This document shows positions 303-38,815 of a stretch of DNA of 64,000 bases, piece by piece. Position 1 is the stretch's first letter, and the number at the start of each line of letters is the position of its first letter. Made by a program: the position numbers and the translations under genes. The stretch comes from Haliclystus octoradiatus (taxonomy: Eukaryota; Cnidaria; Staurozoa; Stauromedusae; Haliclystidae), in assembly GCA_916610825.1 (NCBI GenBank), contig OU744454.1:14950336-15014335 (forward strand), in the 5' to 3' direction. The notes beneath the pieces were generated by a model that saw only the letters and a program-made list of their open reading frames with translations, had not been told where the DNA came from and searched no databases.

Positions 303-6925
<6,623 letters not shown>

Positions 6926-10958: not shown

Positions 10959-11153
10959 TTGTTGTTATTGTTTTGTTGTTTTCTACCAATTCACACTTTT
11001 TGCCAAGATTTGGGAAGCGAATACAAAACGTTCATACGGCTTATTTCTCCGGATTTCAGGAATCTGATTTACAGGTACCCCAACAGTAATGCTTCGTGGT
11101 ACCTTTCGCTTTTGGTTTATCACGTTCTGTGCATTGCATATCGAGTAAATTAG
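10959..11153 (+). CDS. Possible 3' terminal exon of an unidentified gene
   Basis: An open stretch ends in a stop at 11151-11153 and is followed by AATAAA near 11167. It contains GSEYKTFIRLISPDF and a hydrophobic end. The first tandem-array unit starts inside it at 11028, so each later unit carries only its 3' part. No relative was recognised and no upstream exon could be tied to it, so it may be non-coding. Confidence 0.2.
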   Translation: MLLLFCCFLPIHTFCQDLGSEYKTFIRLISPDFRNLIYRYPNSNASWYLSLLVYHVLCIAYRVN

Positions 11154-12073
11154 TTTTTAACTTGGGCAATAAACAACAACGAACGCGGTCAAAACGCAGC
11201 TAACTCAGAAATGATATTGAAGTGTTGTACGTTGTGCTATCCCATAAGGCTTTGCGCGAATCTATTTATAAGTCGGTGAATTGTAACAACTACTCATGGT
11301 TTTGTCAATAAAATGACATTAATCAATAGAAAACTGTTTATTCTATCCTGATATGAAATTTCATTTCATTAAACCAACAAACAAATGAGCTACAAGGAAA
11401 AGAAAGTTTTTAGGATCATTGATCACAAAAAGGGTAAAAATTAAACTGCTTAAATAAAATCATTATTTTTCATCTAAGATCAAAAATACTCCATCTGTGA
11501 TATCTCCGTACCCATATCTCTATGTATAAAAAGTTCAAACAAAATCCATTTTATTTTTGGAACGAAGCCGTTCGATTTTACATGGACTGACCCGCAATAC
11601 ATAATTTGTATAAGATTAAAGGCCTTAATTAAAAGGGAATTATGCTAGGCAATTGTCATCTTCAAGAACATACTACTACGAGGACTCGAGGAGACTTATC
11701 CAGAAAGTATTTTATTATTTGGTTTTAGTTTGGACGCAGACTATTCTAATTATCAAACGATAAAAGACGTTCTGATAACACCCAAGGTCCTTTATTCAGC
11801 ATAATAGGGGCGAGGTATTTTGAAAAAACGATATTAGTGGCAATATCTGACAAATCACGACGAAGCGCAGTGACACATTTTTGATACCTTTGCCGCTTTG
11901 CCGCATAATTGCGGAAATATGTAAGCGCAAGTTTACTTCCCTTTATTTGCCAATCAGAATTGTTGACAAATAAGTAAACAACAACAATAGCCTTATTCCA
12001 GCTGGTACACGTGTGATTATCAATATACGTTTTTGTATACACAGAAGGTGTGATTTGCATATCCAAGAAGTTT

Positions 12074-12081
12074 TATAAAAG
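12074..12081 (+). promoter_or_regulatory. TATA box of secreted repeat gene, unit 1
   Basis: TATAAAAG lies 190 bp upstream of the chosen ATG at 12264. A short upstream reading frame (ATG at about 12107) could lie in the leader. The copies are at 16812-16819 and 21549-21556. Confidence 0.5.
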
Positions 12082-12263
12082 GGTTGGATTTGAGAAATAG
12101 ATTTCAGATGTTATCGTTATTTGAGTTAAACAGGCTGTCACTTGGTTGGTCTAATTTTACAAGGACTGACTGTGTTCTTCTCATATCCCGTCTTCTTCAA
12201 AGGCTATAGATCGTAGATCTAACTTGAAGATATTTCAAAGATAAGTTGTGGTTCATTATCAAG

Positions 12264-14026
12264 ATGTCTCTTTTATCATTCAAGACTTTGATTGTAATTA
12301 TTGTCCTTGTTCATTGGACGACAGCAAGGCACCCAAGAGGTAAGAACATTTGATTGTAGTAGTTTAAGGATAACAGATCAGTTAATTACTGAGCTAATGT
12401 TTTCCTCGTACGTACGACGGCAAAGATATTTTCGCACTCTCTACGACAGGTATTTTCTACTTGATATTTACTGCTCTATTTCCTTCGATTTGCTGAAAAT
12501 TTTCTGAAAAACGGACTACGGAAATGGCACATTAGTTTGGATTGAGCTCCATCTATTTTCAATTATACAGTAATGTAGAATTTAGTTATGATATTGTTTA
12601 TGGTAACACGTCTTCCTGGTCTCAGTTTTATATCTGTGTGAAGTGTTGTAGTGAAGAATAAAGTTTATAACGTGAATTTAACTGCGTGTTTTCTGTCTCC
12701 TCCATGCCGACCTTGTAAGATTCTTACGGGGTCGGCATGGAGGAGAAAGAAAACACGCAATTAAATTCACGTTATAAACTTTATTCTATCTTCCGCGACA
12801 GTCAACAAGCAAGAGGGCGAAACAACAGGCATTCAAAATACATATAACAGTTACTAATCACATGGCATCACATGCACTCAAACAATACAATCACGTGAAC
12901 AACATGCACAATACCTAAAATACTACATGATACGACATATTCAAAACATCGTCACTACGACACTTCACACAGATATACAACTGAGACCAGGAAGACGTGT
13001 TACCATAAACAATATCATAACTAAATCCTACACGCCCCCCCTGAACTCAAGATCACATATTACTATCACATATTACATATTACTACATATCAATATATCA
13101 CACAAGTAAATCACGGTCGTGGCTAGATCAGGGGTAACTTAAGGACATTTTGTGAATTTTTATGAATTATTTTATTTGTATTAAATTCAGTTTTCAACTG
13201 ATTTTAAAAATTCTTTTTGCATCTTGTACCTCTGTATATGTACCACAAATCTACTATGTATAATTAAAAAAATAAAAAAGTTATTCAACTTTTGAACTAA
13301 ACCTGGTGATAAACCTTTTTGGCTGCCTAACATTTGTTGTAATAATTTTTTTATTTTTCATTTTATGCAAGACAGATTTGTAGTAAATATATTTAGGTAC
13401 GAGATGCAAAACGAATTTTTTAAAATCTGTTGAAAACAGAATTTAACACAAATAAAAGAAGCAATAAAAAGCCATAAAAATGTCCTTGAGTTACCCCTGT
13501 TCTAGCCACGACCGTAAATCACCCAATCGATTCTTCAATGAATTTCACCACACTCTAAAATCACACGTTATATAATCAATAAACATTGACCTTTGTTCCA
13601 TAGCTTTGATTGTAATTTCGAAGCATATGACTACAATTTGATTTATTTATCTCATATTTTAACTCTCAAGGGCTTGGGTCTGGACTTGGATCCGGTAGTG
13701 GCTCAGGACTAGGGTCTGGACATGGATCTGGCAGTGGCTCAGGACTAGGGTCTGGACATGGATCTGGCAGTGGCTCAGGGCTTGGGTCTGGACATGGATC
13801 TGGCAATGGTTCAGGGCTTGGGTCTGGACTTGGATCTGGCAGTGGCTCGGGACTTGGGTCTGGACTTGGATCTGGCAATGGCTCAGGACTTGGGTCTGGA
13901 CTTGGATCTGGCAGTGGCTCAGGGCTTGGATCTGGACTTGGATCTGGCAGTGGCTCAGGGCTTGGGTCTGGATATGGATCTGGCAGTGGCTCAGGGCTTG
14001 GATCTGGAAGTGGTTCAGGAAACTAA
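12264..14026 (+). CDS. Secreted Gly/Ser-rich repeat protein, array copy 1
   Basis: Two exons, 12264-12339 and 13671-14026. The donor AGAG|GTAAGA and the acceptor CTCTCAAG|GG, behind a pyrimidine-rich tract, are both phase 1 and join in frame to 143 aa plus TAA. Exon 1 encodes a signal peptide (MSLLSFKT, hydrophobic LIVIIVLV, cleavage likely after TTA, then RHPRG). Exon 2 encodes nine 12-residue repeats of pattern GLGSG[L/H/Y]GSG[S/N]GS plus a shorter last one. The mature chain has no Cys, acidic or aromatic residues apart from one Tyr. The family was not recognised. It resembles low-complexity silk, glue or mucus proteins, and the Ser-Gly repeats recall serglycin-type glycosaminoglycan attachment, but neither role is shown. 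The exon also reads open in other frames, because the 36-bp unit is a multiple of three and lacks stops. Confidence 0.72.
12580..13026. repeat. Nested foldback repeat in intron of the secreted repeat gene, unit 1
   Basis: The outer arms, about 73 nt long (12580-12652 and 12953-13026), are reverse complements and start ATTTAGTTATGATATTG. Inside lies a second hairpin at about 12657-12787, whose arms contain AAAGTTTATAACGTGAATTT and CTCCATGCCGACC, followed by 165 nt of unique sequence. Copies are at 17318-17764 and 22055-22501. Confidence 0.75.
13115..13513. mobile_element. Mutator-like MITE with 9-bp target duplication, unit 1
   Basis: Terminal inverted repeats of about 40 bp begin GGTCGTGGCTAGA and end TCTAGCCACGACC. 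They are flanked by the perfect 9-bp direct repeat GTAAATCAC (13106-13114 and 13514-13522). The 399-bp body is itself largely inverted and non-coding. It lies in the intron of the secreted repeat gene. Copies are at 17853-18251 and 22590-22988. A 9-bp duplication with long inverted ends is typical of Mutator-like elements. Confidence 0.82.
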
Positions 14027-14243
14027 TATTTGCTTTTGTTGGTCGTGCTTTCTTCATAATGAATTTGATATAAATAATAAGGAGTTTGATAATGGGTCCA
14101 TTTTGTAATATTTTTCTTATTCTCTATTTATATTTAAAAGAGTAGATCTGTGATGAATCAGCTACTGTATGTTTTGAATTTATATAAAAGTTATCCATCA
14201 AACTTACAATTCTTCTTTATGCATTCCATTACTAGTACCGTTC

Positions 14244-14414
14244 GCGATTTGACAAACAGATAGAAGATTCGACCACCTGCGTTCAGATGGCTTCAGATAG
14301 CTTGCGTGTTAGGCGTTGGACGCACAACCAGAGCACAGTGACCGCTTTTGATATGCTACGGCACATGACATGGGCGCGCAGGTGGTCGAATCTTCTACCT
14401 GTTTGTCAAATCGC
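14244..14414. mobile_element. 171-bp MITE with 9-bp target duplication, unit 1
   Basis: Ends GCGATTTGACAAACAG / CTGTTTGTCAAATCGC continue inward as a longer inverted repeat (AGAAGATTCGACCACCTGCG). They are flanked by GTACCGTTC (14235-14243 and 14415-14423). Copies are at 18982-19152 and 23719-23889. It lies downstream of exon 2 and looks like another Mutator-like non-autonomous family. Confidence 0.82.
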
Positions 14415-14586
14415 GTACCGTTCACATTACTCCCCTGATTAGCATTTTCATATGTCTCTTTGCTATTCTCAATTGCCTCTTCTACTATAGCTGCGACACC
14501 ATGTAAATTTGTTCTTGACCATGGAGTTCACATGTAATATGAAATTCTGAACGTTTGCTAAATAATAACCAGCAATGTTTCATATT

Positions 14587-14672
14587 AGCCTCATTCCATC
14601 ACGGCCCTCGTTTCTGCGTGGCATTTCAACTGGAGCGCCGCGCGGAAATGAGGACTGTGATGGAATGAGGCT
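14587..14672. repeat. 86-bp hairpin repeat, unit 1
   Basis: Arms AGCCTCATTCCATCACGGCC and its near reverse complement surround a GC-rich loop (GGAGCGCCGCGCGG). Copies are at 19325-19410 and 24062-24147, and a related element lies at 45365-45435, so it is a dispersed family. Confidence 0.7.
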
Positions 14673-15321
14673 CGTGTCATATTAGCACTGTTGTGAGAAT
14701 TACCTGTAAAAGTAATTAACTACTTCACTCTTTCTCTAAAACGTTTTTAATTACTCCTAAAATTATTGCAAAGTAAGTAATACCAAGGAACACGCTGCTT
14801 TTGTTATCAACTCTATTTTGTTATAATTCTAATTAATAGGCTATCTTAACATGTTACTGTTATTGTTATTGTTAGGAATTAGTGACGCTTACTCACAGAA
14901 TAATGTCCCAGATACCCCCTAAATGGGGAGGGGCTAAAGTGACCGCTTAGAAAAGCGCTTTCAATCTCATTGGCTGATTCTGATGATTCAATCTTGCTCA
15001 AAATGTTAAGTAAACTATATTTTTGAAAGGTAATTTACAACACTTTAGGCTGCGTGGAGAAATCTGCCGTTTCCAGTCTGATTCAATCAAATATCGGCTT
15101 TTCGCTGCAGCATATTGTTAAGCTATTGTTCATTCTTGCCTTTGTGTGAAATACATCAAGCAATAATGTATTTTAAATAATTTTTCTTTCAAATAAATTT
15201 CTGAAGATGACATAAGCAATGTTGAAAGCTCAAGCAACATATAATTTATCGCTTACTTTATTACACAAATAATATAATCCCGGATTTAAACCTTTAGGTT
15301 TTGTTACTACCCTGCAGTTAA

Positions 15322-15764
15322 AGTGCACATGCACCAAAAAATTTTATTCCGGAATCAAGTAGCCCATGCAAAATAAATAGGAATGGCGGCAATAATTTTT
15401 CGATTTGGACTCTTATAAGCGGAGATATTTAATTTTGAAAGTACCATATTTCAGAAATTGTGCTCCTTCGAAAGTCGGAACTCATGCCGGAATGACAAGA
15501 AAGCCCACTATGGAAAAATAACCAAGTCTAGACTTCAAAAAATCGTAACTTTTTTCTCGCGAAAAAGAAATTGTCCACTTTCCAGAACAGATATGCCCAT
15601 ATCTTCGGGACACCTTGTTGGCCATATATGACTGAAATTGAACGTAAAATGTAGAGTTTAGAAAGGTTTTATTAGACTTCGATGGAGTTTTTCTGTCAAA
15701 AAGGTGTTAAAACACTGGATTAACGCATGTTATGCATCAAGGTGTTGACTACTAAAACAGCGGC
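15322..15764. mobile_element. Truncated foldback-element arm at end of unit 1
   Basis: Matches the outer 443 bp of the left arm of the complete foldback element at 24797-27078, including the preceding TTAA (15318-15321). It is cut off at the unit junction. The equivalent piece in unit 2 ends at 20504. Confidence 0.85.
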
Positions 15765-16811
15765 AACGTTCATACGGCTTATTTCTCCGGATTTCAGGAA
15801 TCTGATTTACAGGTACCCCAACAGTAATGCTTCGTGGTACCTTTCGCTTTTGGTTTATCACGTTCTGTGCATTGCATATCGAGTAAATTAGTTTTTAACT
15901 TGGGCAATAAACAACAACGAACGCGGTCAAAACGCAGCTAACTCAGAAATGATATTGAAGTGTTGTACGTTGTGCTATCCCATAAGGCTTTGCGCGAATC
16001 TATTTATAAGTCGGTGAATTGTAACAACTACTCATGGTTTTGTCAATAAAATGACATTAATCAATAGAAAACTGTTTATTCTATCCTGATATGAAATTTC
16101 ATTTCATTAAACCAACAAACAAATGAGCTACAAGGAAAAGAAAGTTTTTAGGATCATTGATCACAAAAAGGGTAAAAATTAAACTGCTTAAATAAAATCA
16201 TTATTTTTCATCTAAGATCAAAAATACTCCATCTGTGATATCTCCGTACCCATATCTCTATGTATAAAAAGTTCAAACAAAATCCATTTTATTTTTGGAA
16301 CGAAGCCGTTCGATTTTACATGGACTGACCCGCAATACATAATTTGTATAAGATTAAAGGCCTTAATTAAAAGGGAATTATGCTAGGCAATTGTCATCTT
16401 CAAGAACATACTACTACGAGGACTCGAGGAGACTTATCCAGAAAGTATTTTATTATTTGGTTTTAGTTTGGACGCAGACTATTCTAATTATCAAACGATA
16501 AAAGACGTTCTGATAACACCCAAGGTCCTTTATTCAGCATAATAGGGGCGAGGTATTTTGAAAAAACGATATTAGTGGCAATATCTGACAAATCACGACG
16601 AAGCGCAGTGACACATTTTTGATACCTTTGCCGCTTTGCCGCATAATTGCGGAAATATGTAAGCGCAAGTTTACTTCCCTTTATTTGCCAATCAGAATTG
16701 TTGACAAATAAGTAAACAACAACAATAGCCTTATTCCAGCTGGTACACGTGTGATTATCAATATACGTTTTTGTATACACAGAAGGTGTGATTTGCATAT
16801 CCAAGAAGTTT

Positions 16812-16819
16812 TATAAAAG
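16812..16819 (+). promoter_or_regulatory. TATA box of secreted repeat gene, unit 2
   Basis: TATAAAAG, 190 bp upstream of the ATG at 17002, in sequence identical to unit 1. Confidence 0.5.
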
Positions 16820-17001
16820 GGTTGGATTTGAGAAATAGATTTCAGATGTTATCGTTATTTGAGTTAAACAGGCTGTCACTTGGTTGGTCTAATTTTACAA
16901 GGACTGACTGTGTTCTTCTCATATCCCGTCTTCTTCAAAGGCTATAGATCGTAGATCTAACTTGAAGATATTTCAAAGATAAGTTGTGGTTCATTATCAA
17001 G

Positions 17002-18764
17002 ATGTCTCTTTTATCATTCAAGACTTTGATTGTAATTATTGTCCTTGTTCATTGGACGACAGCAAGGCACCCAAGAGGTAAGAACATTTGATTGTAGTAG
17101 TTTAAGGATAACAGATCAGTTAATTACTGAGCTAATGTTTTCCTCGTACGTACGACGGCAAAGATATTTTCGCACTCTCTACGACAGGTATTTTCTACTT
17201 GATATTTACTGCTCTATTTCCTTCGATTTGCTGAAAATTTTCTGAAAAACGGACTACGGAAATGGCACATTAGTTTGGATTGAGCTCCATCTATTTTCAA
17301 TTATACAGTAATGTAGAATTTAGTTATGATATTGTTTATGGTAACACGTCTTCCTGGTCTCAGTTTTATATCTGTGTGAAGTGTTGTAGTGAAGAATAAA
17401 GTTTATAACGTGAATTTAACTGCGTGTTTTCTGTCTCCTCCATGCCGACCTTGTAAGATTCTTACGGGGTCGGCATGGAGGAGAAAGAAAACACGCAATT
17501 AAATTCACGTTATAAACTTTATTCTATCTTCCGCGACAGTCAACAAGCAAGAGGGCGAAACAACAGGCATTCAAAATACATATAACAGTTACTAATCACA
17601 TGGCATCACATGCACTCAAACAATACAATCACGTGAACAACATGCACAATACCTAAAATACTACATGATACGACATATTCAAAACATCGTCACTACGACA
17701 CTTCACACAGATATACAACTGAGACCAGGAAGACGTGTTACCATAAACAATATCATAACTAAATCCTACACGCCCCCCCTGAACTCAAGATCACATATTA
17801 CTATCACATATTACATATTACTACATATCAATATATCACACAAGTAAATCACGGTCGTGGCTAGATCAGGGGTAACTTAAGGACATTTTGTGAATTTTTA
17901 TGAATTATTTTATTTGTATTAAATTCAGTTTTCAACTGATTTTAAAAATTCTTTTTGCATCTTGTACCTCTGTATATGTACCACAAATCTACTATGTATA
18001 ATTAAAAAAATAAAAAAGTTATTCAACTTTTGAACTAAACCTGGTGATAAACCTTTTTGGCTGCCTAACATTTGTTGTAATAATTTTTTTATTTTTCATT
18101 TTATGCAAGACAGATTTGTAGTAAATATATTTAGGTACGAGATGCAAAACGAATTTTTTAAAATCTGTTGAAAACAGAATTTAACACAAATAAAAGAAGC
18201 AATAAAAAGCCATAAAAATGTCCTTGAGTTACCCCTGTTCTAGCCACGACCGTAAATCACCCAATCGATTCTTCAAAGAATTTCACCACACTCTAAAATC
18301 ACACGTTATATAATCAATAAACATTGACCTTTGTTCCATAGCTTTGATTGTAATTTCGAAGCATATGACTACAATTTGATTTATTTATCTCATATTTTAA
18401 CTCTCAAGGGCTTGGGTCTGGACTTGGATCCGGTAGTGGCTCAGGACTAGGGTCTGGACATGGATCTGGCAGTGGCTCAGGACTAGGGTCTGGACATGGA
18501 TCTGGCAGTGGCTCAGGGCTTGGGTCTGGACATGGATCTGGCAATGGTTCAGGGCTTGGGTCTGGACTTGGATCTGGCAGTGGCTCGGGACTTGGGTCTG
18601 GACTTGGATCTGGCAATGGCTCAGGACTTGGGTCTGGACTTGGATCTGGCAGTGGCTCAGGGCTTGGATCTGGACTTGGATCTGGCAGTGGCTCAGGGCT
18701 TGGGTCTGGATATGGATCTGGCAGTGGCTCAGGGCTTGGATCTGGAAGTGGTTCAGGAAACTAA
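17002..18764 (+). CDS. Secreted Gly/Ser-rich repeat protein, array copy 2
   Basis: Exons 17002-17077 and 18409-18764, with the same phase-1 join and 143-aa product as copy 1. No difference from copy 1 was noticed in either exon, although intron and downstream bases differ at a few sites (for example CAAAGAA for CAATGAA just before 18280). The intron again holds the nested foldback repeat and the 399-bp MITE. The identity of a fast-mutating 36-bp repeat exon suggests very recent duplication or gene conversion. All three copies keep the TATA box, so all could be transcribed and would add to product dose. Function is unknown. Confidence 0.72.
17318..17764. repeat. Nested foldback repeat, unit 2
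   Basis: Same arms and inner hairpin as 12580-13026, in the intron of copy 2. Confidence 0.75.
17853..18251. mobile_element. Mutator-like MITE, unit 2
   Basis: Same inverted ends and GTAAATCAC duplication as the element at 13115-13513. It was copied with the unit, not independently inserted. Confidence 0.82.
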
Positions 18765-18981
18765 TATTTGCTTTTGTTGGTCGTGCTTTCTTCATAATGA
18801 ATTTGATATAAATAATAAGGAGTTTGATAATGGGTCCATTTTGTAATATTTTTCTTATTCTCTATTTATATTTAAAAGAGTAGATCTGTGATGAATCAGC
18901 TACTGTATGTTTTGAATTTATATAAAAGTTATCCATCAAACTTACAATTCTTCTTTATGCATTCCATTACTAGTACCGTTC

Positions 18982-19152
18982 GCGATTTGACAAACAGATA
19001 GAAGATTCGACCACCTGCGTTCAGATGGCTTCAGATAGCTTGCGTGTTAGGCGTTGGACGCACAACCAGAGCACAGTGACCGCTTTTGATATGCTACGGC
19101 ACATGACATGGGCGCGCAGGTGGTCGAATCTTCTACCTGTTTGTCAAATCGC
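18982..19152. mobile_element. 171-bp MITE, unit 2
   Basis: Same ends and GTACCGTTC duplication as 14244-14414. Confidence 0.82.
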
Positions 19153-19324
19153 GTACCGTTCACATTACTCCCCTGATTAGCATTTTCATATGTCTCTTTG
19201 CTATTCTCAATTGCCTCTTCTACTATAGCTGCGACACCATGTAAATTTGTTCTTGACCATGGAGTTCACATGTAATATGAAATTCTGAACGTTTGCTAAA
19301 TAATAACCAGCAATGTTTCATATT

Positions 19325-19410
19325 AGCCTCATTCCATCACGGCCCTCGTTTCTGCGTGGCATTTCAACTGGAGCGCCGCGCGGAAATGAGGACTGTGATG
19401 GAATGAGGCT
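19325..19410. repeat. 86-bp hairpin repeat, unit 2
   Basis: Same hairpin as 14587-14672. Confidence 0.7.
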
Positions 19411-20060
19411 CGTGTCATATTAGCACTGTTGAGAGAATTACCTGTAAAAGTAATTAACTACTTCACTCTTTCTCTAAAACGTTTTTAATTACTCCTAAAA
19501 TTATTGCAAAGTAAGTAATACCAAGGAACACGCTGCTTTTGTTATCAACTCTATTTTGTTATAATTCTAATTAATAGGCTATCTTAACATGTTACTGTTA
19601 TTGTTATTGTTAGGAATTAGTGACGCTTACTCACAGAATAATGTCCCAGATACCCCCTAAATGGGGAGGGGCTAAAGTGACCGCTTAGAAAAGCGCTTTC
19701 AATCTCATTGGCTGATTCTGATGATTCAATCTTGCTCAAAATGTTAAGTAAACTATATTTTTGAAAGGTAATTTACAACACTTTAGGCTGCGTGGAGAAA
19801 TCTGCCGTTTCCAGTCTGATTCAATCAAATATCGGCTTTTCGCTGCAGCATATTGTTAAGCTATTGTTCATTCTTGCCTTTGTGTGAAATACATCAAGCA
19901 ATAATGTATTTTAAATAATTTTTCTTTCAAATAAATTTCTGAAGATGACATAAGCAATGTTGAAAGCTCAAGCAACATATAATTTATCGCTTACTTTATT
20001 ACACAAATAATATAATCCCGGATTTAAACCTTTAGGTTTTGTTACTACCCTGCAGTTAAA

Positions 20061-20504
20061 GTGCACATGACACCAAAAAATTTTATTCCGGAATCAAGTA
20101 GCCCATGCAAAATAAATAGGAATGGCGGCAATAATTTTTCGATTTGGACTCTTATAAGCGGAGATATTTAATTTTGAAAGTACCATATTTCAGAAATTGT
20201 GCTCCTTCGAAAGTCGGAACTCATGCCGGAATGACAAGAAAGCCCACTATGGAAAAATAACCAAGTCTAGACTTCAAAAAATCGTAACTTTTTTCTCGCG
20301 AAAAAGAAATTGTCCACTTTCCAGAACAGTTATGCCCATATCTTCGGGACACCTTGTTGGCCATATATGACTGAAATTGAACGTAAAATGTAGAGTTTAT
20401 AAAGGTTTTATTAGACTTCGATAAAGTTTTTCTGTCAAAAAGGTGTTAAAACACTGGATTAACGCATGTTATGCATCAAGGTGTTGACTACTAAAACAGC
20501 GGCA
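20061..20504. mobile_element. Truncated foldback-element arm at end of unit 2
   Basis: Outer part of the left arm of the foldback element, cut at the junction with unit 3. It keeps the CATGACACC end seen in the complete element, which unit 1 has lost by one base. Confidence 0.85.
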
Positions 20505-21548
20505 ACGTTCATACGGCTTATTTCTCCGGATTTCAGGAATCTGATTTACAGGTACCCCAACAGTAATGCTTCGTGGTACCTTTCGCTTTTGGTTTATCAC
20601 GTTCTGTGCATTGCATATCGAGTAAATTAGTTTTTAACTTGGGCAATAAACAACAACGAACGCGGTCAAAACGCAGCTAACTCAGAAATGATATAAGTGT
20701 TGTACGTTGTGCTATCCCATAAGGCTTTGCGCGAATCTATTTATAAGTCGGTGAATTGTAACAACTACTCATGGTTTTGTCAATAAAATGACATTAATCA
20801 ATAGAAAACTGTTTATTCTATCCTGATATGAAATTTCATTTCATTAAACCAACAAACAAATGAGCTACAAGGAAAAGAAAGTTTTTAGGATCATTGATCA
20901 CAAAAAGGGTAAAAATTAAACTGCTTAAATAAAATCATTATTTTTCATCTAAGATCAAAAATACTCCATCTGTGATATCTCCGTACCCATATCTCTATGT
21001 ATAAAAAGTTCAAACAAAATCCATTTTATTTTTGGAACGAAGCCGTTCGATTTTACATGGACTGACCCGCAATACATAATTTGTATAAGATTAAAGGCCT
21101 TAATTAAAAGGGAATTATGCTAGGCAATTGTCATCTTCAAGAACATACTACTACGAGGACTCGAGGAGACTTATCCAGAAAGTATTTTATTATTTGGTTT
21201 TAGTTTGGACGCAGACTATTCTAATTATCAAACGATAAAAGACGTTCTGATAACACCCAAGGTCCTTTATTCAGCATAATAGGGGCGAGGTATTTTGAAA
21301 AAACGATATTAGTGGCAATATCTGACAAATCACGACGAAGCGCAGTGACACATTTTTGATACCTTTGCCGCTTTGCCGCATAATTGCGGAAATATGTAAG
21401 CGCAAGTTTACTTCCCTTTATTTGCCAATCAGAATTGTTGACAAATAAGTAAACAACAACAATAGCCTTATTCCAGCTGGTACACGTGTGATTATCAATA
21501 TACGTTTTTGTATACACAGAAGGTGTGATTTGCATATCCAAGAAGTTT

Positions 21549-21556
21549 TATAAAAG
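21549..21556 (+). promoter_or_regulatory. TATA box of secreted repeat gene, unit 3
   Basis: TATAAAAG, 190 bp upstream of the ATG at 21739. Confidence 0.5.
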
Positions 21557-21738
21557 GGTTGGATTTGAGAAATAGATTTCAGATGTTATCGTTATTTGAG
21601 TTAAACAGGCTGTCACTTGGTTGGTCTAATTTTACAAGGACTGACTGTGTTCTTCTCATATCCCGTCTTCTTCAAAGGCTATAGATCGTAGATCTAACTT
21701 GAAGATATTTCAAAGATAAGTTGTGGTTCATTATCAAG

Positions 21739-23501
21739 ATGTCTCTTTTATCATTCAAGACTTTGATTGTAATTATTGTCCTTGTTCATTGGACGACAGC
21801 AAGGCACCCAAGAGGTAAGAACATTTGATTGTAGTAGTTTAAGGATAACAGATCAGTTAATTACTGAGCTAATGTTTTCCTCGTACGTACGACGGCAAAG
21901 ATATTTTCGCACTCTCTACGACAGGTATTTTCTACTTGATATTTACTGCTCTATTTCCTTCGATTTGCTGAAAATTTTCTGAAAAACGGACTACGGAAAT
22001 GGCACATTAGTTTGGATTGAGCTCCATCTATTTTCAATAATACAGTAATGTAGAATTTAGTTATGATATTGTTTATGGTAACACGTCTTCCTGGTCTCAG
22101 TTTTATATCTGTGTGAAGTGTTGTAGTGAAGAATAAAGTTTATAACGTGAATTTAACTGCGTGTTTTCTGTCTCCTCCATGCCGACCTTGTAAGATTCTT
22201 ACGGGGTCGGCATGGAGGAGAAAGAAAACACGCAATTAAATTCACGTTATAAACTTTATTCTATCTTCCGCGACAGTCAACAAGCAAGAGGGCGAAACAA
22301 CAGGCATTCAAAATACATATAACAGTTACTAATCACATGGCATCACATGCACTCAAACAATACAATCACGTGAACAACATGCACAATACCTAAAATACTA
22401 CATGATACGACATATTCAAAACATCGTCACTACGACACTTCACACAGATATACAACTGAGACCAGGAAGACGTGTTACCATAAACAATATCATAACTAAA
22501 TCCTACACGCCCCCCCTGAACTCAAGATCACATATTACTATCACATATTACATATTACTACATATCAATATATCACACAAGTAAATCACGGTCGTGGCTA
22601 GATCAGGGGTAACTTAAGGACATTTTGTGAATTTTTATGAATTATTTTATTTGTATTAAATTCAGTTTTCAACTGATTTTAAAAATTCTTTTTGCATCTT
22701 GTACCTCTGTATATGTACCACAAATCTACTATGTATAATTAAAAAAATAAAAAAGTTATTCAACTTTTGAACTAAACCTGGTGATAAACCTTTTTGGCTG
22801 CCTAACATTTGTTGTAATAATTTTTTTATTTTTCATTTTATGCAAGACAGATTTGTAGTAAATATATTTAGGTACGAGATGCAAAACGAATTTTTTAAAA
22901 TCTGTTGAAAACAGAATTTAACACAAATAAAAGAAGCAATAAAAAGCCATAAAAATGTCCTTGAGTTACCCCTGTTCTAGCCACGACCGTAAATCACCCA
23001 ATCGATTCTTCAATGAATTTCACCACACTCTAAAATCACACGTTATATAATCAATAAACATTGACCTTTGTTCCATAGCTTTGATTGTAATTTCGAAGCA
23101 TATGACTACAATTTGATTTATTTATCTCATATTTTAACTCTCAAGGGCTTGGGTCTGGACTTGGATCCGGTAGTGGCTCAGGACTAGGGTCTGGACATGG
23201 ATCTGGCAGTGGCTCAGGACTAGGGTCTGGACATGGATCTGGCAGTGGCTCAGGGCTTGGGTCTGGACATGGATCTGGCAATGGTTCAGGGCTTGGGTCT
23301 GGACTTGGATCTGGCAGTGGCTCGGGACTTGGGTCTGGACTTGGATCTGGCAATGGCTCAGGACTTGGGTCTGGACTTGGATCTGGCAGTGGCTCAGGGC
23401 TTGGATCTGGACTTGGATCTGGCAGTGGCTCAGGGCTTGGGTCTGGATATGGATCTGGCAGTGGCTCAGGGCTTGGATCTGGAAGTGGTTCAGGAAACTA
23501 A
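21739..23501 (+). CDS. Secreted Gly/Ser-rich repeat protein, array copy 3
   Basis: Exons 21739-21814 and 23146-23501, again a phase-1 join giving 143 aa. The signal-peptide exon, the donor and acceptor, and the order of the L/H/Y and S/N variants along the 12-residue repeats are as in copies 1 and 2. This copy is followed by the complete foldback element and not by another unit, so it marks the original end of the duplicated segment. No canonical AATAAA was seen within about 250 bp after the stop in any copy, which leaves the 3' end of the transcript unclear. Confidence 0.72.
22055..22501. repeat. Nested foldback repeat, unit 3
   Basis: Same arms and inner hairpin as 12580-13026. Confidence 0.75.
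22590..22988. mobile_element. Mutator-like MITE, unit 3
   Basis: Same element and target duplication as 13115-13513. Confidence 0.82.
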
Positions 23502-23718
23502 TATTTGCTTTTGTTGGTCGTGCTTTCTTCATAATGAATTTGATATAAATAATAAGGAGTTTGATAATGGGTCCATTTTGTAATATTTTTCTTATTCTCT
23601 ATTTATATTTAAAAGAGTAGATCTGTGATGAATCAGCTACTGTATGTTTTGAATTTATATAAAAGTTATCCATCAAACTTACAATTCTTCTTTATGCATT
23701 CCATTACTAGTACCGTTC

Positions 23719-23889
23719 GCGATTTGACAAACAGATAGAAGATTCGACCACCTGCGTTCAGATGGCTTCAGATAGCTTGCGTGTTAGGCGTTGGACGCAC
23801 AACCAGAGCACAGTGACCGCTTTTGATATGCTACGGCACATGACATGGGCGCGCAGGTGGTCGAATCTTCTACCTGTTTGTCAAATCGC
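23719..23889. mobile_element. 171-bp MITE, unit 3
   Basis: Same element and target duplication as 14244-14414. Confidence 0.82.
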
Positions 23890-24061
23890 GTACCGTTCAC
23901 ATTACTCCCCTGATTAGCATTTTCATATGTCTCTTTGCTATTCTCAATTGCCTCTTCTACTATAACTGCGACACCATGTAAATTTGTTCTTGACCATGGA
24001 GTTCACATGTAATATGAAATTCTGAACGTTTGCTAAATAATAACCAGCAATGTTTCATATT

Positions 24062-24147
24062 AGCCTCATTCCATCACGGCCCTCGTTTCTGCGTGGCATT
24101 TCAACTGGAGCGCCGCGCGGAAATGAGGACTGTGATGGAATGAGGCT
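24062..24147. repeat. 86-bp hairpin repeat, unit 3
   Basis: Same hairpin as 14587-14672. Confidence 0.7.
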
Positions 24148-24796
24148 CGTGTCATATTAGCACTGTTGTGAGAATTACCTGTAAAAGTAATTAACTACTT
24201 CACTCTTTCTCTAAAACGTTTTTAATTACTCCTAAAATTATTGCAAAGTAAGTAATACCAAGGAACACGCTGCTTTTGTTATCAACTCTATTTTGTTATA
24301 ATTCTAATTAATAGGCTATCTTAACATGTTACTGTTATTGTTATTGTTAGGAATTAGTGACGCTTACTCACAGAATAATGTCCCAGATACCCCCTAAATG
24401 GGGAGGGGCTAAAGTGACCGCTTAGAAAAGCGCTTTCAATCTCATTGGCTGATTCTGATGATTCAATCTTGCTCAAAATGTTAAGTAAACTATATTTTTG
24501 AAAGGTAATTTACAACACTTTAGGCTGCGTGGAGAAATCTGCCGTTTCCAGTCTGATTCAATCAAATATCGGCTTTTCGCTGCAGCATATTGTTAAGCTA
24601 TTGTTCATTCTTGCCTTTGTGTGAAATACATCAAGCAATAATGTATTTTAAATAATTTTTCTTTCAAATAAATTTCTGAAGATGACATAAGCAATGTTGA
24701 AAGCTCAAGCAACATATAATTTATCGCTTACTTTATTACACAAATAATATAATCCCGGATTTAAACCTTTAGGTTTTGTTACTACCCTGCAGTTAA

Positions 24797-27078
24797 AGTG
24801 CACATGACACCAAAAAATTTTATTCCGGAATCAAGTAGCCCATGCAAAATAAATAGGAATGGCGGCAATAATTTTTCGATTTGGACTCTTATAAGCGGAG
24901 ATATTTAATTTTGAAAGTACCATATTTCAGAAATTGTGCTCCTTCGAAAGTCGGAACTCATGCCGGAATGACAAGAAAGCCCACTATGGAAAAATAACCA
25001 AGTCTAGACTTCAAAAAATCGTAACTTTTTTCTCGCGAAAAAGAAATTGTCCACTTTCCAGAACAGATATGCCCATATCTTCGGGACACCTTGTTGGCCA
25101 TATATGACTGAAATTGAACGTAAAATGTAGAGTTTATAAAGGTTTTATTAGACTTCGATAAAGTTTTTCTGTCAAAAAGGTGTTAAAACACTGGATTAAC
25201 GCATGTTATGCATCAAGGTGTTGACTACTAAAACAGCGGCAAAATGCTTTGTATTCACTTCGCCGCGGATGATGATCTAAACGTCTATAAAATTAAAAAA
25301 AAAATTCATTGCGCTATTTTGGTCGATCTCCCGCAGCTTAACGTCAGTGCTTCACTGATTTGTTAGCTTCAATCTCAATGATTGGCTATTAAAAACCATT
25401 GCATGACCCCCTGTTTGCCTTGCAGCAGACGCGTTTCTTCAACAAAAACACAATTATAGAAAGATGAAATCGACACACGCAATGTGTTTAATATAGTTTT
25501 ATATTCGATGGACAACGGTTGTTGTCGACTTCTTCACAAAGCTATCCTGTCTAAGAATTATATTTAATCAATGAATTTAATATGCTGGAGATGTTTTTAT
25601 CTGATATATAAAATACAATATTATATCACAAAAGACGTAATATATTGACGACACAGAGAGGTGTCTCATATTCGGGGAAAGATGGATATAATAATTGACT
25701 GAAACTAAAACATTTTGTACAGTTTAGACACACATATGGACAGTTTTACATTAATTTTGGCTTTCAAATCAACTTCATTGTTCAACTAATTTACATTTTA
25801 TGTTGACTAAGACTAGATGTTATTCGTGAAATTATACACTGCAGTAACAAATCATATGATATTGCATTGTTTTTCGTTTCGAGCACTTCAGTGAGTGAAT
25901 CATCGCTACAGATACACATGGCGAGTAGAACCGCCTTCAATGTCTGTATTATATTTACCTAGACCCTGAAATAATTCGAGTGTGCCCAGTGCATATCAGC
26001 ATGCGAGTGTTGCTCAAGCAGAATCAAATCATGAGGATCATCACGAATAACATTTAGCCTTCGTCAACATAAAATGTAAATTACTTGAACAATGAAGTTG
26101 AATTTGAAAGTCAAAATTAATGTAAAACTGTCCATATGTGTGTCCAAACCGTACAAAATGTTTTGGTTTCAGTGAATTATTATTTCCATCATTACCCAAA
26201 TGTAAGACACCTCTCTGTGTCGTCAATTGATATATTAAAGTCTTTTGTGATATAATATTGTATTTTATATATCAGATAAAAACATCTCCAGCATATAAAA
26301 TTCATTGATTAAATATAATTCTTAGACAGGATAACTTTGTGAAGAGGTCGACAACAACCGTTGTCCATCGAATATAAAACTATATTAAACACATTTGCGT
26401 GTGTCGATTTCATCTTTCAGTAATTGTGTTTTTGTTGAAGAAACGCGTCTGTTGCAAGGCAAACAGGGGGTCATGCAATGGTTTTTAATAGCCAATCATT
26501 GAGATTGAAGCTAACAAATCAGTGAAGCACTGACGTTAAGCTGCGGGAGATCGACCAAAATAGCGCAATGAATTTTTTTCAATTTTATAGACGTTAAGAT
26601 CATCATCCGCGGCGAAGTGAATACAAAGCGTTTTGCCACTGTTTTAGTAGTCAACACCTTGATGCGTAACATGCGTTAATCCAGTGTTTTAACACCTTTT
26701 TGACAGAAAAACTCCATCGAAGTCTAATAAAACCTTTATAAACTCTACATTTTACGTTCAAATTCAGTCATATATGGCCAACAAGGTGTCCCGAAGATAT
26801 GGGCATATCTGTTCTGGAAACTGGACAATTTCTTTTTCGCGAGATAAAAGTTACGATTTTTTGAAGTCTAGACTTGGTTATTTTTCCATAGTGGGCTTTC
26901 TTGTCATTCCGGCATGAGTTCCGACTTTCGAAGGAGCACAATTTCTGAAATATGGTACTTTCAAAATTAAATATCTCCGCTTATAAGAGTCCAAATCGAA
27001 AAATTATTGCCGCCATTCCTATTTATTTTGCATGGGCTACTTGATTCCGGAATAAAATTTTTTGGTGTCATGTGCACT
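24797..27078. mobile_element. Large foldback element with ~1-kb inverted arms, TTAA-flanked
   Basis: The left arm (24797-25829) and right arm (26041-27078) are reverse complements over more than 1 kb with scattered mismatches. They enclose about 210 bp of unlike sequence. The ends are AGTGCACATGACACC / GGTGTCATGTGCACT and are flanked by TTAA on both sides (24793-24796 and 27079-27082). TTAA duplication suggests mobilisation by a piggyBac-type or other TTAA-targeting transposase, though the ends do not start with the usual CCY. No protein is encoded; the reading frame on the minus strand of the right arm (26041-26226) looks accidental. The right end of the tandem array falls inside the left arm at 25242. 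Confidence 0.85.
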
Positions 27079-27157
27079 TTAATCAAAACTCTTGAAATAT
27101 TAATCAGGATTCAAAACTTTGATGAAATATAAATCCTGTTTGGATGATAATTCTTAA

Positions 27158-28628: not shown

Positions 28629-31600
28629 TTGAGATCTCAACGAAATATAGTCCGAGATAAAGTGGAGTTCCAAGAGCGATGTCAAAAGGAGGGCGAGTCA
28701 TTTAACTCATACTTAATAGCGCTACACGAGATTGCTAAGAACTGTGAGTTTTGCCAATGCAGTAGAGACGACCGGTTCATCACAAATATTATACGGGGTG
28801 TTACGGATCAGGACTTAAGAAGAAAACTGCTAGAGAAGAAAGTACAAACACTAGAACAATGCGTAGACGTTTGCGAAATATTTGAATCATCAAAAGATGA
28901 TAATGCCGTTCTAAATGCGTCATCCATTGTTAATGCTGTCAAGCAGACGTCACACCGTCCCAAAAATAGTAAAAAGACATACAAAAATTTTAAATGTCAT
29001 GGTTGTCATGGAAATTGTACCACCCGCATGGAATGTCCTTCTTGGGGTAAGCCATGTCCGCATTGTGGTATTAATAATCATCTTGGTGACGTATGCCGCT
29101 ATAAAAAATCAGAGAATGACGCCGCACAGGGAAAAGCCAACGTCAACACAATGTTATTACACGTTAGGGGATCTAACAAAGCCCCTCGAATTCAATGCCA
29201 TATCAAAAATACGCAACTGAACGGTACAAAACAAATAATGTGTCTACCAGATACTGGTGCCGAGGCCACTTGTATGGGTTGGTCAAATGCATCTCAAATT
29301 GGCATTAGTAGAAATATGTTGACCGCTTATAAAGGGAAACCTCTGAAAACGGCAAATGGGCACACAATGATATGTTTTGGAACATTTAAAGCAAGTATTT
29401 CACATGGGAATTATTCCACAGTTGAAACCATTCATGTTTTCCCACATATTTCAGGAACATTATTGTCATGGTTCACATGTCTTGAATTGGGATTATTACC
29501 ATCCAATTATCCTACTCAAATTTCATCTGGTATTAACAGTGTCGCTATCAATTTTACACCTAATCAAACAACTGCATCTGTCAAAGAAGTAAAAGAAAAT
29601 CTTATGTCAGAATTTAAGGATGTATTTGATTGTGAGAATGGATTAAAAGCAATGTACACCAACGAAATGAAAATCAAGCTTCGTGAAGATGCCACACCAT
29701 TCCATATTCACGCCGCCCGTTCAATACCTTATGCATGGCGACCTAAAGTTAAGCAGCTACTAGATGATATGAAACGTCAAGGAATAATCACACCCGTAGA
29801 AGAAGACAGTGAATGGTGTGCACCAATGCATGTTACAACCAAGTCAAACGGTGAATTAAGAATAGTTGGTGATATGCGAGAATTAAATAAGCATGTCATG
29901 CGTCCCATCTACCCACTAGTAACACCGAGAGATGCAGTCACCACTATTGATCATGATGCAAAGATCTTCTCGACGCTTGACGCTAAAAGTGGCTACTGGC
30001 AAATTCCATTAGAAGTAGAAAGTCAGAAGCTGACAACATTTTTGACCCCGTGGGGTCGCTACAAATATCTCCGTGCAACAATGGGTCTAGTCAGCAGTGG
30101 TGACGAATATAACAAAAGAGGAGATGACGCCCTGGGCGGCATGCCTCGTACCATCAAAGTAGTAGACGACATCTTACTTCATGACACTGATATGGATACA
30201 CATATTAAACATTTAAAAACAATATTGGCTAGATGTAGAGAAATGGGTATTACACTTAACCCGAAAATATTTGTTTTTGGTCAATCCATCGTAGATTATG
30301 TCGGATATCGTGTCAGTGCCGAGGGAACTTCAGCAGATCCAAAGAAATTGAAAGCTATCTCTGAATTCCCAACTCCAACCAATATTACCGAGTTGCGGTC
30401 ATTCTTTGGCATGGTTGAACAACTAGCACATTTTTCCCATGATATTTCTTCTGCAAAAGAGCCACTTCGCTACCTCCTCAAGAGCAACAATATATTTCAA
30501 TGGTTACCTGAGCACGACAAAGCCTTCTCTCAAATCAAATATTTGTTATCTCAACCACCTGTATTGGCTCATTTTGATCCTCACCTTCCCATTATGCTTC
30601 ATACTGATGCGTCAAGACTACAAGGACTGGGTTACGCGTTACTACAACGGCAAAATAAAGAATGGCGCCTTATTGAATGCGGATCAAGATTTCTCAATGA
30701 TGCAGAAAGCCGATACGCAGTCATTGAATTGGAATGCTTAGCTGTCGCATGGGCTATGGTGAAATGCAGGATATTTTTACAAGGGCAACATAACTTTACA
30801 GTATTAACTGATCATAAGCCTCTCGTGCCCATACTAAACAATTACTCACTCACTTCAATTGATAATCCACGACTTCAACGATTGAAAGAAAAGTTAGCAC
30901 CGTTCACATTCACTACTGAATGGCGCCAAGGAAAGACTCATGCTATTGCTGACGCATTATCGCGTGCACCAGTTTCACATCCCGAAGAAGATGATTTACT
31001 AGCTGAAGATGCGTCAATCAATAACATCATCGGATCTAAAGAACATTGGACGGATCGAACCGTTGAACTAATACGAAAAGAAGCCAAGGAAGATGAAAAT
31101 TACAAATGTCTCTACAAATATGTTTCTGAAGGTTTCCCATCATCTTCTAAAACACTCCCAGTATATTTAAAACCATACTTCAAATTACGTGATGAATTAT
31201 CAATTGATGGAAATGGATTAATTCTTCGTGCGAAGCAAATTGTCATACCTGCTAAAGCCCGCAACGATATTCTACAGAGATTGCATGCTGCTCATCAAGG
31301 TATCGTCCTAACAAAACAACGTGCTAGACAAGCCGTATACTGGCCTGGTATCAGCAATGACATCGTCAATATTGTATCTAAATGTACCTCATGTCAGTTA
31401 TACTTACCAAGTAACACAAAGGAGCCATACCAGAATGACCCACACCCAACTCGCATTTTTGAAGCAACGTCAGCTGATTACTTCGAACTACATGGACGTC
31501 ATTTTCTTGTGTACGCTGATCGCTACTCTAGTTGGCCAAGCATCACAGCATTTAACAAAGATACAACTACCACACCACTTTGTATCGCTCTCGCTGAACA

Positions 31601-32321
31601 CTTTGCAAATACAGGTGTTCCTTTACGACTACGAACTGATGGTGGACCCCAATTTATTAGCAATGAATTCTCGTCATTTTGTGAAAAGTGGGGTATTCAT
31701 CATCAAACATCCTCTCCACACTATCCCCAATCCAATGGTCATGCCGAAGCGAATGTCAAGAAAGTTAAACATCTGCTGGACAAGACAACATCAAAAGGCA
31801 ACTTTAGAACTGAAGAATTTTACGAAGGTCTTCTAGAGTTACGCAATACTCCATGCCTTGGTGATCTTTCGCCGGCCGAAATAATTTTTGGATACCCGAT
31901 GCGTACCCGTGTTCCCTTGCATCACAGTGCATTTCTTCCCCAATGGAAAGCACCCCTTGAAGAGGGTGCCCAAAAGATGGCTGAATATCTTAGTAATTCA
32001 AAGCAGCACTACAATAAATCAGCTTATTCTCTTCCATCGCTACCTTTAAATTCAAGAGTTTTAATTCAGGATTATCGAACAAAGCGTTGGAACGCGAAAG
32101 GGAAAGTAGAGGCGATCAATAATAATCGCGATTATGTCATTCGCAGAGACAACGGATCGGAGATGCGCCGAAATCGACGTTTCCTGAGAGCCGACCCATC
32201 TACAACACAAGATGATCAACTAACATCTACAAATCAAAAGCAGGATCTGAAAAGTTATGAAAGACGTCACCGCAAACCAATACAACGCTACAGCAATTCC
32301 AACCCTGAAGCAGAGGATTGA
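28629..32321 (+). CDS. Gag (C-terminal part)–Pol polyprotein of Ty3/Gypsy element
   Basis: A 1230-codon open frame directly after the TAG. It starts in Gag sequence (KVEFQERCQKEGESF). In order it then has a Cys/His-rich knuckle region (about 28990-29100), an aspartic protease motif LPDTGAEAT (about 29250) and reverse transcriptase (about 29700-30300, catalytic VVDDILLHD). RNase H follows (about 30590-30990, LHTDAS and TDHKPL), then integrase with an HHCC finger (HQG and CTSC, about 31290-31400), the Asp in TSADYFE, Asp in RTDGGPQF and Glu in GHAEAN. A GPY/F-like module ends it (SRVLIQDY and RRNRRFLRA). All catalytic residues appear intact. No ATG marks the start; the frame is an extension of Gag. 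The missing Gag continuity makes autonomous activity doubtful. Confidence 0.9.
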   Translation: MRSQRNIVRDKVEFQERCQKEGESFNSYLIALHEIAKNCEFCQCSRDDRFITNIIRGVTDQDLRRKLLEKKVQTLEQCVDVCEIFESSKDDNAVLNASSIVNAVKQTSHRPKNSKKTYKNFKCHGCHGNCTTRMECPSWGKPCPHCGINNHLGDVCRYKKSENDAAQGKANVNTMLLHVRGSNKAPRIQCHIKNTQLNGTKQIMCLPDTGAEATCMGWSNASQIGISRNMLTAYKGKPLKTANGHTMICFGTFKASISHGNYSTVETIHVFPHISGTLLSWFTCLELGLLPSNYPTQISSGINSVAINFTPNQTTASVKEVKENLMSEFKDVFDCENGLKAMYTNEMKIKLREDATPFHIHAARSIPYAWRPKVKQLLDDMKRQGIITPVEEDSEWCAPMHVTTKSNGELRIVGDMRELNKHVMRPIYPLVTPRDAVTTIDHDAKIFSTLDAKSGYWQIPLEVESQKLTTFLTPWGRYKYLRATMGLVSSGDEYNKRGDDALGGMPRTIKVVDDILLHDTDMDTHIKHLKTILARCREMGITLNPKIFVFGQSIVDYVGYRVSAEGTSADPKKLKAISEFPTPTNITELRSFFGMVEQLAHFSHDISSAKEPLRYLLKSNNIFQWLPEHDKAFSQIKYLLSQPPVLAHFDPHLPIMLHTDASRLQGLGYALLQRQNKEWRLIECGSRFLNDAESRYAVIELECLAVAWAMVKCRIFLQGQHNFTVLTDHKPLVPILNNYSLTSIDNPRLQRLKEKLAPFTFTTEWRQGKTHAIADALSRAPVSHPEEDDLLAEDASINNIIGSKEHWTDRTVELIRKEAKEDENYKCLYKYVSEGFPSSSKTLPVYLKPYFKLRDELSIDGNGLILRAKQIVIPAKARNDILQRLHAAHQGIVLTKQRARQAVYWPGISNDIVNIVSKCTSCQLYLPSNTKEPYQNDPHPTRIFEATSADYFELHGRHFLVYADRYSSWPSITAFNKDTTTTPLCIALAEHFANTGVPLRLRTDGGPQFISNEFSSFCEKWGIHHQTSSPHYPQSNGHAEANVKKVKHLLDKTTSKGNFRTEEFYEGLLELRNTPCLGDLSPAEIIFGYPMRTRVPLHHSAFLPQWKAPLEEGAQKMAEYLSNSKQHYNKSAYSLPSLPLNSRVLIQDYRTKRWNAKGKVEAINNNRDYVIRRDNGSEMRRNRRFLRADPSTTQDDQLTSTNQKQDLKSYERRHRKPIQRYSNSNPEAED

Positions 32322-38673: not shown

Positions 38674-38815
38674 ACTAATAATTGATGATTTAAGTATTTG
38701 TAACAACGAGAAACAACGTATACAAGTGGTATAATCAGTGATCGTCGATTAATGAAAACTAACAGCAAGCGCCACCAAATTTCAACTGCGTTTTCAACCG
38801 TGCGTTTTCAAAAGA

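Follow-up and report, generated by a model that had tools for sequence, protein, structure and literature searches.

What is encoded by the three nearly identical tandem units at 11028-25242 of a 64,000-nucleotide stretch of the stalked jellyfish Haliclystus octoradiatus (contig OU744454.1, positions 14,950,336 to 15,014,335, forward strand)? This whole stretch is called the window, positions without a prefix follow window numbering, and C11 is the contig that carries the window, taken as chromosome 9 of the species. A preliminary description, made from the letters of the window alone, had proposed that each unit holds a small gene, here gene A, whose spliced product is a secreted Gly/Ser-repeat chain resembling no known family. 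In this study, two relatives of gene A, genes B and C, were found 25-37 kb upstream of the window, both on the minus strand, and each carries an exon for a CBM14-like domain in front of the repeat. From these sequence comparisons, we believed that the A units probably encode small secreted silk-like structural proteins and form the anchor-free, Leu-type branch of a local chitin-associated matrix family on chromosome 9, and we placed the probability of this reading at roughly 60%.

Layout and reading frame of the tandem units

Alignment of the units within the window gave three head-to-tail copies of ~4.74 kb with 99.8% identity, and the lengths of A1, A2, and A3 were 4738, 4739, and 4738 bp, respectively. 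A1-A3 differ at 12 columns of the alignment, including one at a unit boundary, and at none within the proposed exons. A false tandem duplication in the assembly was not favoured: the three units differ mutually, and the H. octoradiatus assembly is based on 68-fold HiFi (PMC9975415). At 24793-27082 there is an inverted repeat, whose arms (24793-25829 and 26041-27082) are 96% identical and separated by a 211-bp spacer. Each tandem unit ends in ~450 bp with homology to one of these arms, and the inverted repeat may therefore have mediated the triplication.

Each unit contains a TATA box, a signal-peptide exon, and an exon of 36-bp repeats (Table 1), as the preliminary description had stated. The phase-1 junction that it had predicted for A1, 12339/13671, proved exact, and the equivalent predicted junctions in A2 and A3 are 17077/18409 and 21814/23146, respectively. 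Splicing at these junctions would yield one identical chain of 143 amino acids (aa) from all three units, the secreted Gly/Ser product expected earlier. This chain would consist of a 21-aa signal peptide and a mature part of 122 aa with 48.4% Gly, 30.3% Ser, and 12.3% Leu, in which there are 37 SG dipeptides and 0 acidic residues. The signal peptide was called from Kyte–Doolittle (KD) hydrophobicity, and its cleavage after WTTA in A was placed by eye. The mean KD values of the hydrophobic N-terminal 15-mer were 2.53, 2.55, and 2.23 in A, B, and C, respectively, and the top 19-mer in the mature chains had 0.38. The 36-bp array in A1 comprises 9.4 copies (score 547), and the A1 intron holds palindromic insertions at about 12574-13032 and about 13108-13520, the latter seen by eye.

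Besides the Gly/Ser frame, others are open over the repeat exon of A, including two antisense ones, and the longest frame overall, at 154 aa, runs antisense. Met is absent from the Gly/Ser frame in this exon; both features had been anticipated, and the earlier warning that routine gene calling would choose a wrong frame is plausible. Frame openness alone was undecisive, and therefore codon variants and exon phase in A, B, and C were used. For each repeat slot, the distinct codon variants were collected and the synonymous share was counted. In the Gly/Ser frame, the synonymous variants were 7/10, 15/36, and 9/25 in A, B, and C, respectively, where one of the 25 variants of C is a stop from a slice extending past the array end. 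An antisense proline frame (PEPLPDPSP) reached 8/11 in A, slightly above the sense frame, and was ruled out only by its stops, 22 in B and 47 in C. A second antisense frame, which is open in A, B, and C, had 1/11, 4/32, and 8/21 synonymous variants, respectively, the share in C being equal to that of the sense frame. When all pairs were counted, synonymous pairs made up 70% (A) and 65% (B) in the sense frame and 83% (A) and 53% (B) in the antisense proline frame, the last figure with 306 stop-involving pairs. Across the three genes, the Gly/Ser frame was the best supported, with the signal and CBM14 exons in phase. This frame is more than a chance product, because the same 12-aa repeat stands in the same phase behind a signal exon in two diverged genes, and this backs the earlier choice of the Gly/Ser frame as the true one.

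Local relatives and the CBM14-like exon

A genome search with the promoter and exon 1 of A gave four matches, namely the three A units and, at 78%, gene B on the minus strand, and a search with the 3' sequence of A led to the same four places. Over the promoter, exon 1, and donor, A and B are 80% identical in 445 bp, and exon 1 of B encodes a signal peptide nearly the same as that of A. Exon 2 of B (159 bp, phase 1-1) encodes the CBM14-like domain, and exon 3 contains 41.3 copies of the 36-bp repeat. Gene C starts with a signal peptide of its own and continues with a CBM14 exon that is 56% identical to that of B over 41 residues and with a 36-bp repeat in 47.7 copies, which codes mostly for GHWSGHGSGSGH. 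All introns of A, B, and C are phase 1, and B and C have a common three-exon plan. The opinion that the product resembles no family could not be kept, as relatives with a CBM14-like exon and the 12-aa repeat are present on the same chromosome.

The 12-aa unit G-x-x-S-G-x-G-S-G-x-G-x fits 9/9, 36/40, and 29/46 complete repeats of A, B, and C, respectively. Trp occupies repeat position 3 in 0/9, 26/40, and 46/46 of them, respectively. At position 6, the repeats of A have His in 3/9 and Tyr in 1/9 and there is no Trp in any of them; the enrichment in His and Trp belongs to the repeats of B and C. Mature C consists of 34.5% Gly and 24.2% His. The numbers of SG dipeptides in B and C were 147 and 123, respectively, and the acidic residues in mature B were 3/557.

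The domain shared by B and C has six common cysteines in the arrangement C-x4/5-C-x20/21-C-x6-C-x2-C-x12-C. A PDB sequence search with the B domain gave four weak matches, the best of which was a mite allergen (E 0.0047), followed by chitotriosidase (0.1), squid chitin binding beak protein 3 (0.56), and a 25-kDa polyphenol-binding protein (6.6). We regarded the domain as a CBM14-like variant and a putative chitin binder. When the B domain was searched against the genome, 0/21 scored candidates lay within the A units at E<=1.

Other CBM_14 exons were seen in the window and elsewhere in the genome. Two clear ones at 47322-47480 and 48063-48212 on the plus strand (46.0 and 42.3 bits, respectively) apparently belong to a separate secreted gene, of which the frames at 42190-47201 on the plus strand may be further exons. 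Tandem CBM_14 exons at C5:7065171-7070243, 11 over the Pfam cut-off and 12 weakly matching the B domain, form a candidate large chitin-binding protein.

Loss of both the CBM14 exon and the His/Trp repeats is the most likely history of the triplicated A gene, because the A acceptor aligns with the intron preceding the CBM14 exon of B. The segment 13617-13672, which ends at the A acceptor, aligned with this intron at a score of 48, reached by 0/2000 shuffles, and with the intron before the repeat exon of B at a score of 35, reached by 9/2000 shuffles. The adjacent segment 13525-13616 also aligns upstream of the CBM14 exon of B (score 48; best of 500 shuffles 34). The last base of exon 1 is T in B and C, giving a Cys codon with the CBM14 exon, and G in A, giving Gly with the repeat; exon 1 of B spliced directly to exon 3 would give a stop codon. 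Gene C, the more distant relative, has the CBM14 exon, and therefore loss in A would be the simpler history.

Around exon 1, 67/346 noncoding flank bases differ between A and B (19.4%), compared with 3/63 changes in the signal-peptide codons, of which 1 is nonsynonymous in about 48 sites (P=4e-4 vs the flank rate; Fisher P=0.003). In the rest of exon 1, which adjoins the lost exon, 5/13 bases differ. At the 3' end, the region 13869-14243, which spans the final repeats, has 5/375 mismatches (98.7% identity), compared with 36/200 at 13669-13868, a contrast suggestive of a recent conversion event between the two genes. From 14009, the search printed 100% identity to B over 235 bp, and an ungapped count has 1 mismatch within 14027-14243.

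The A repeat gave 39 matches in the genome, and many of those outside the loci discussed here lie near contig ends and were read as telomere-like. The family count leaves out the repeat matches at C11:1199276-1200055 and C11:12652319-12652558, and distant members elsewhere in the genome are conceivable. For B residues 1-90, none of the 14 word-sharing candidates in the protein database reached E<=1, which is weak evidence of restriction given the uncertain cnidarian coverage. One protein match to C residues 1-140 (E 0.067, precomputed PF03544 domain, 36% identity over 24%) was judged spurious, and the Staphylococcus phage matches to the repeat (two records, 72.6% over 48% of the query) were judged to be low-complexity chance. 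The Gly/Ser frames at C11:14902333-14902560, 14906241-14906546, 4528084-4528263, and 4533585-4533959 were placed outside the family; they follow matrix-metalloproteinase-like frames, recognised by eye, are linker-like, and have another repeat period. Such metalloproteinase-like frames stand beside Gly/Ser-rich linker frames in four places within C11:14901079-14902560, 14905137-14906711, and 4528084-4534431. A Cys-rich ShKT-like frame follows the 14905137-14906711 locus, and another lies beyond the linker near 4533065.

Table 1. Positions of the tandem units, the predicted parts of gene A, and genes B and C
Feature	Position	Strand	Remark
Tandem unit A1	11028..15765	+	99.8% identity to A2, A3
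Tandem unit A2	15766..20504	+	Unit alignment
Tandem unit A3	20505..25242	+	Unit alignment
TATA box, A1	12074..12081	+	TATAAAAG; conserved in diverged gene B
TATA box, A2	16812-16819	+	
TATA box, A3	21549-21556	+	
A1 exon 1	12264..12339	+	Signal peptide MSLLSFKTLIVIIVLVHWTTA, then RHPR and first base of next codon; phase 1 end
A1 intron	12340..13670	+	1331 bp; GTAAGA...AG; donor GT at 12340, acceptor AG at 13669-13670
A1 exon 2	13671..14026	+	12-aa GLGSG[LHY]GSG[SN]GS repeats and stop (ends at 14026)
A2 exon 1	17002..17077	+	
A2 exon 2	18409..18764	+	Includes stop (ends at 18764)
A3 exon 1	21739..21814	+	
A3 exon 2	23146..23501	+	Includes stop (ends at 23501)
A1 post-stop stretch	14027..14243	+	Nearly identical to gene B (A-B comparison)
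Gene B	C11:14925023-14922509	-	578 aa, three exons
Gene C	C11:14917936-14913114	-	655 aa, three exons; found with the CBM14 exon of B

Proposed history and rival explanations

In this paper, we proposed that the ancestral layout was that of B and C, with a signal peptide, one CBM14-like exon, and a long exon of Trp/His-rich 12-aa repeats. Through the CBM14 part, the chain may be fixed to chitin, and its flexible repeat tail may build a cohesive gel or matrix via His/Trp contacts. A deletion or recombination in A would have set the repeat directly after the old CBM14 acceptor, with the CBM14 exon and the His/Trp repeats gone. With Leu-type repeats only, A would be secreted freely, without an anchor, and serve as a filler or an elastic part of the same matrix, and the recent triplication would raise its output.

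By composition, the predicted A, B, and C chains are silk-like structural proteins (SLSPs), and the silk-like or adhesive structural role named in the preliminary description was kept as a reasonable option. Studies have described SLSPs by a signal peptide and Gly-rich repeats, with Gly well over 25% in 80-residue windows, and as often lineage-restricted (PMC4944945). The maximum Gly fractions in such a window were 0.50, 0.49, and 0.41 in A, B, and C, respectively, where the criterion is at least 25%. SLSPs are described as a compositional class and not as a homologous family (PMC4944945), whereas the 12-aa unit linked to a CBM14-like exon was met only at the A/B/C locus in the searches made. 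B and C resemble CBM14/peritrophin-A proteins in their one CBM14-like exon; unlike such proteins, A is without the domain, and B and C join a single domain to a long Gly/His/Trp tail. For example, the anemone Chondroitin proteoglycan 2 is described with 11 domains, compared with one in B and C (PMC6626399). In the squid beak, chitin-binding (DgCBP) and Gly/His-repeat (DgHBP) parts are likewise combined in one material (PMC9716703), and the His-rich repeats of HBP are reported to drive coacervation (PMC6884462). Modular His/aromatic repeats of this type are present in B and C and absent from A. However, the two beak parts are separate protein families and not one chain as in B and C, the main aromatic residue of B and C is Trp instead of Tyr, and A has neither part. 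A, B, and C were not assigned as spinalin, CPG, or beak proteins.

Several observations weigh against the reading of A as an anchor-free branch of a chitin-associated family. Gene A has no CBM_14 match, and there is no chitin-binding part in A itself. With the Pfam cut-off at 22.1 bits, gene C scored 28.4 bits, and the exon of B scored 22.6 bits alone and 19.2 bits, under the cut-off, with part of the repeat; on these predictions, A is outside the CBM14 class, C is inside it by Pfam score, and B is borderline. A genome-wide CBM_14 search (E<=0.001) gave 105 matches, with C included and B missing. The Cys spacing of B and C departs from the usual CBM14 arrangement, which makes chitin binding uncertain. 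Two long hits to the chitin synthase model (278 and 242 bits) in the genome would favour the reading, but they are not specific, as this model also matches 4/14 bacterial or archaeal control genomes, including E. coli. The signals AATAAA and ATTAAA are absent from 14027-14700 downstream of the A1 stop. The conservation of the signal peptide could come from conversion reaching exon 1, and constraint is no proof.

Among the rival explanations, it is unlikely, though worth serious attention, that A is a decaying truncated relic, in which the functional CBM14 and His/Trp parts were deleted and the triplication was passive, perhaps driven by the flanking palindromic element. The lack in A of the domains of B and C fits such decay, as do the mature N-terminus, which changed freely next to the lost exon in the 5/13 bases after the signal codons, and the palindromic elements within the intron and at the edge of the unit. 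However, 3/3 copies retain an intact signal peptide, donor, acceptor, and frame and have no premature stop, and the signal peptide has fewer changes than the flanks.

The main functional rival is that the family forms part of the nematocyst, as Hydra spinalin and fibroin-like shaft proteins do, and not of an adhesive or coat matrix. We considered this doubtful. Spinalin, a Gly- and His-rich spine protein of a cnidarian, was compared by description only, and knockdown of a fibroin-like factor led to thinner shaft filaments in Nematostella (PMC9205923, PMC2687796); the Gly and His contents of mature C would suit a material of this kind. In contrast, the CBM14-like domain in the same chain as the repeats points to chitin. 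The passages of this literature at hand report chondroitin and GlcNAc-selective lectin staining, mention no chitin-binding domains in nematocyst proteins, and mention none in their descriptions of spinalin (PMC9205923, PMC2687796).

A chondroitin-type proteoglycan core like C. elegans CPG-1/CPG-2 is a weaker alternative and rather improbable. These proteins are described as secreted, with chitin-binding domains and many candidate glycan sites, putatively for chondroitin (PMC5603424), and B and C also pair a CBM14-like domain with many SG dipeptides. In contrast to CPG-1/CPG-2, A and B are nearly without acidic residues, and their repeat is a strict 12-mer from whose composition the SG dipeptides follow. 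Glycosaminoglycan attachment usually requires acidic residues nearby. None of the 37 SG sites in mature A has an acidic neighbour, and the Ser-Gly glycan-carrying role suggested earlier is weak for A.

Finally, a noncoding or antisense-coding minisatellite with coincidental exon pairing is highly improbable: the several open frames and the antisense counts in A taken alone (8/11, and 83% vs 70% synonymous pairs) would agree with it, but stops in B and C break the proline frame, the antisense frame that stays open in A, B, and C is mostly nonsynonymous although it equals the sense share in C, and the Gly/Ser frame follows the signal-peptide and CBM14 exons of B and C in phase.

Neighbouring features and meaning for stalked jellyfish

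Elsewhere in the window, there are an exon of a MOZ/SAS-family gene at 5293-5523 (55.3 bits), a 1230-aa retroelement-like frame at 28629-32318, recognised by eye, and a transposase frame with DDE_Tnp_4 and THAP at 37174-38748; Rfam gave 0 matches within the window. On the mitochondrial contig, a DNA-polymerase-like frame was seen by eye near one end (C33:3-914, minus strand), and such a frame is known from medusozoan mitochondria. The cox1 strand is opposite to that of most other genes, and the first 10 kb has two tRNAs only (Met, and anticodon tca). The cox1 strand, the polymerase-like frame, and the two tRNAs fit a medusozoan mitochondrion.

The pedal disk, anchors, and adhesive pads of staurozoans are described as having a glandular adhesive epidermis (PMC5088631), and no molecular description of these materials was found in the searches made, which covered an open-licence library only. 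Invertebrate chitin-binding proteins are reported to be enriched in the pedal disc of an anemone, and a part in the pedal-disc adhesion of Hydra has been proposed for peritrophin-A domains (PMC6626399). We tentatively considered, as an unlikely but specific proposal, that the family makes attachment or surface material of stalked jellyfish, in which B and C would be single-chain, chitin-anchored His/Trp-repeat proteins, matching in one molecule the two-protein system of the squid beak, and the anchor-free Leu-type A would have been amplified after loss of a phase-1 chitin-binding exon. In that case, domain loss together with a higher dosage would have changed an anchored cross-linker into a soluble filler of the matrix.

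The locus is of interest as a local family that joins a chitin-binding-like domain to a Gly/His/Trp repeat, together with a triplicated anchor-less branch. The genome of Haliclystus octoradiatus has been sequenced, and public mid-body polyA RNA-seq is available (ERR9434978). If the A, B, and C proteins are expressed in attachment tissues, they would be candidate glue or coat proteins for an animal class with little molecular work. Gene A would then also offer a clean case of a structural protein that evolved by losing its binding domain and kept the frame and the signal intact.

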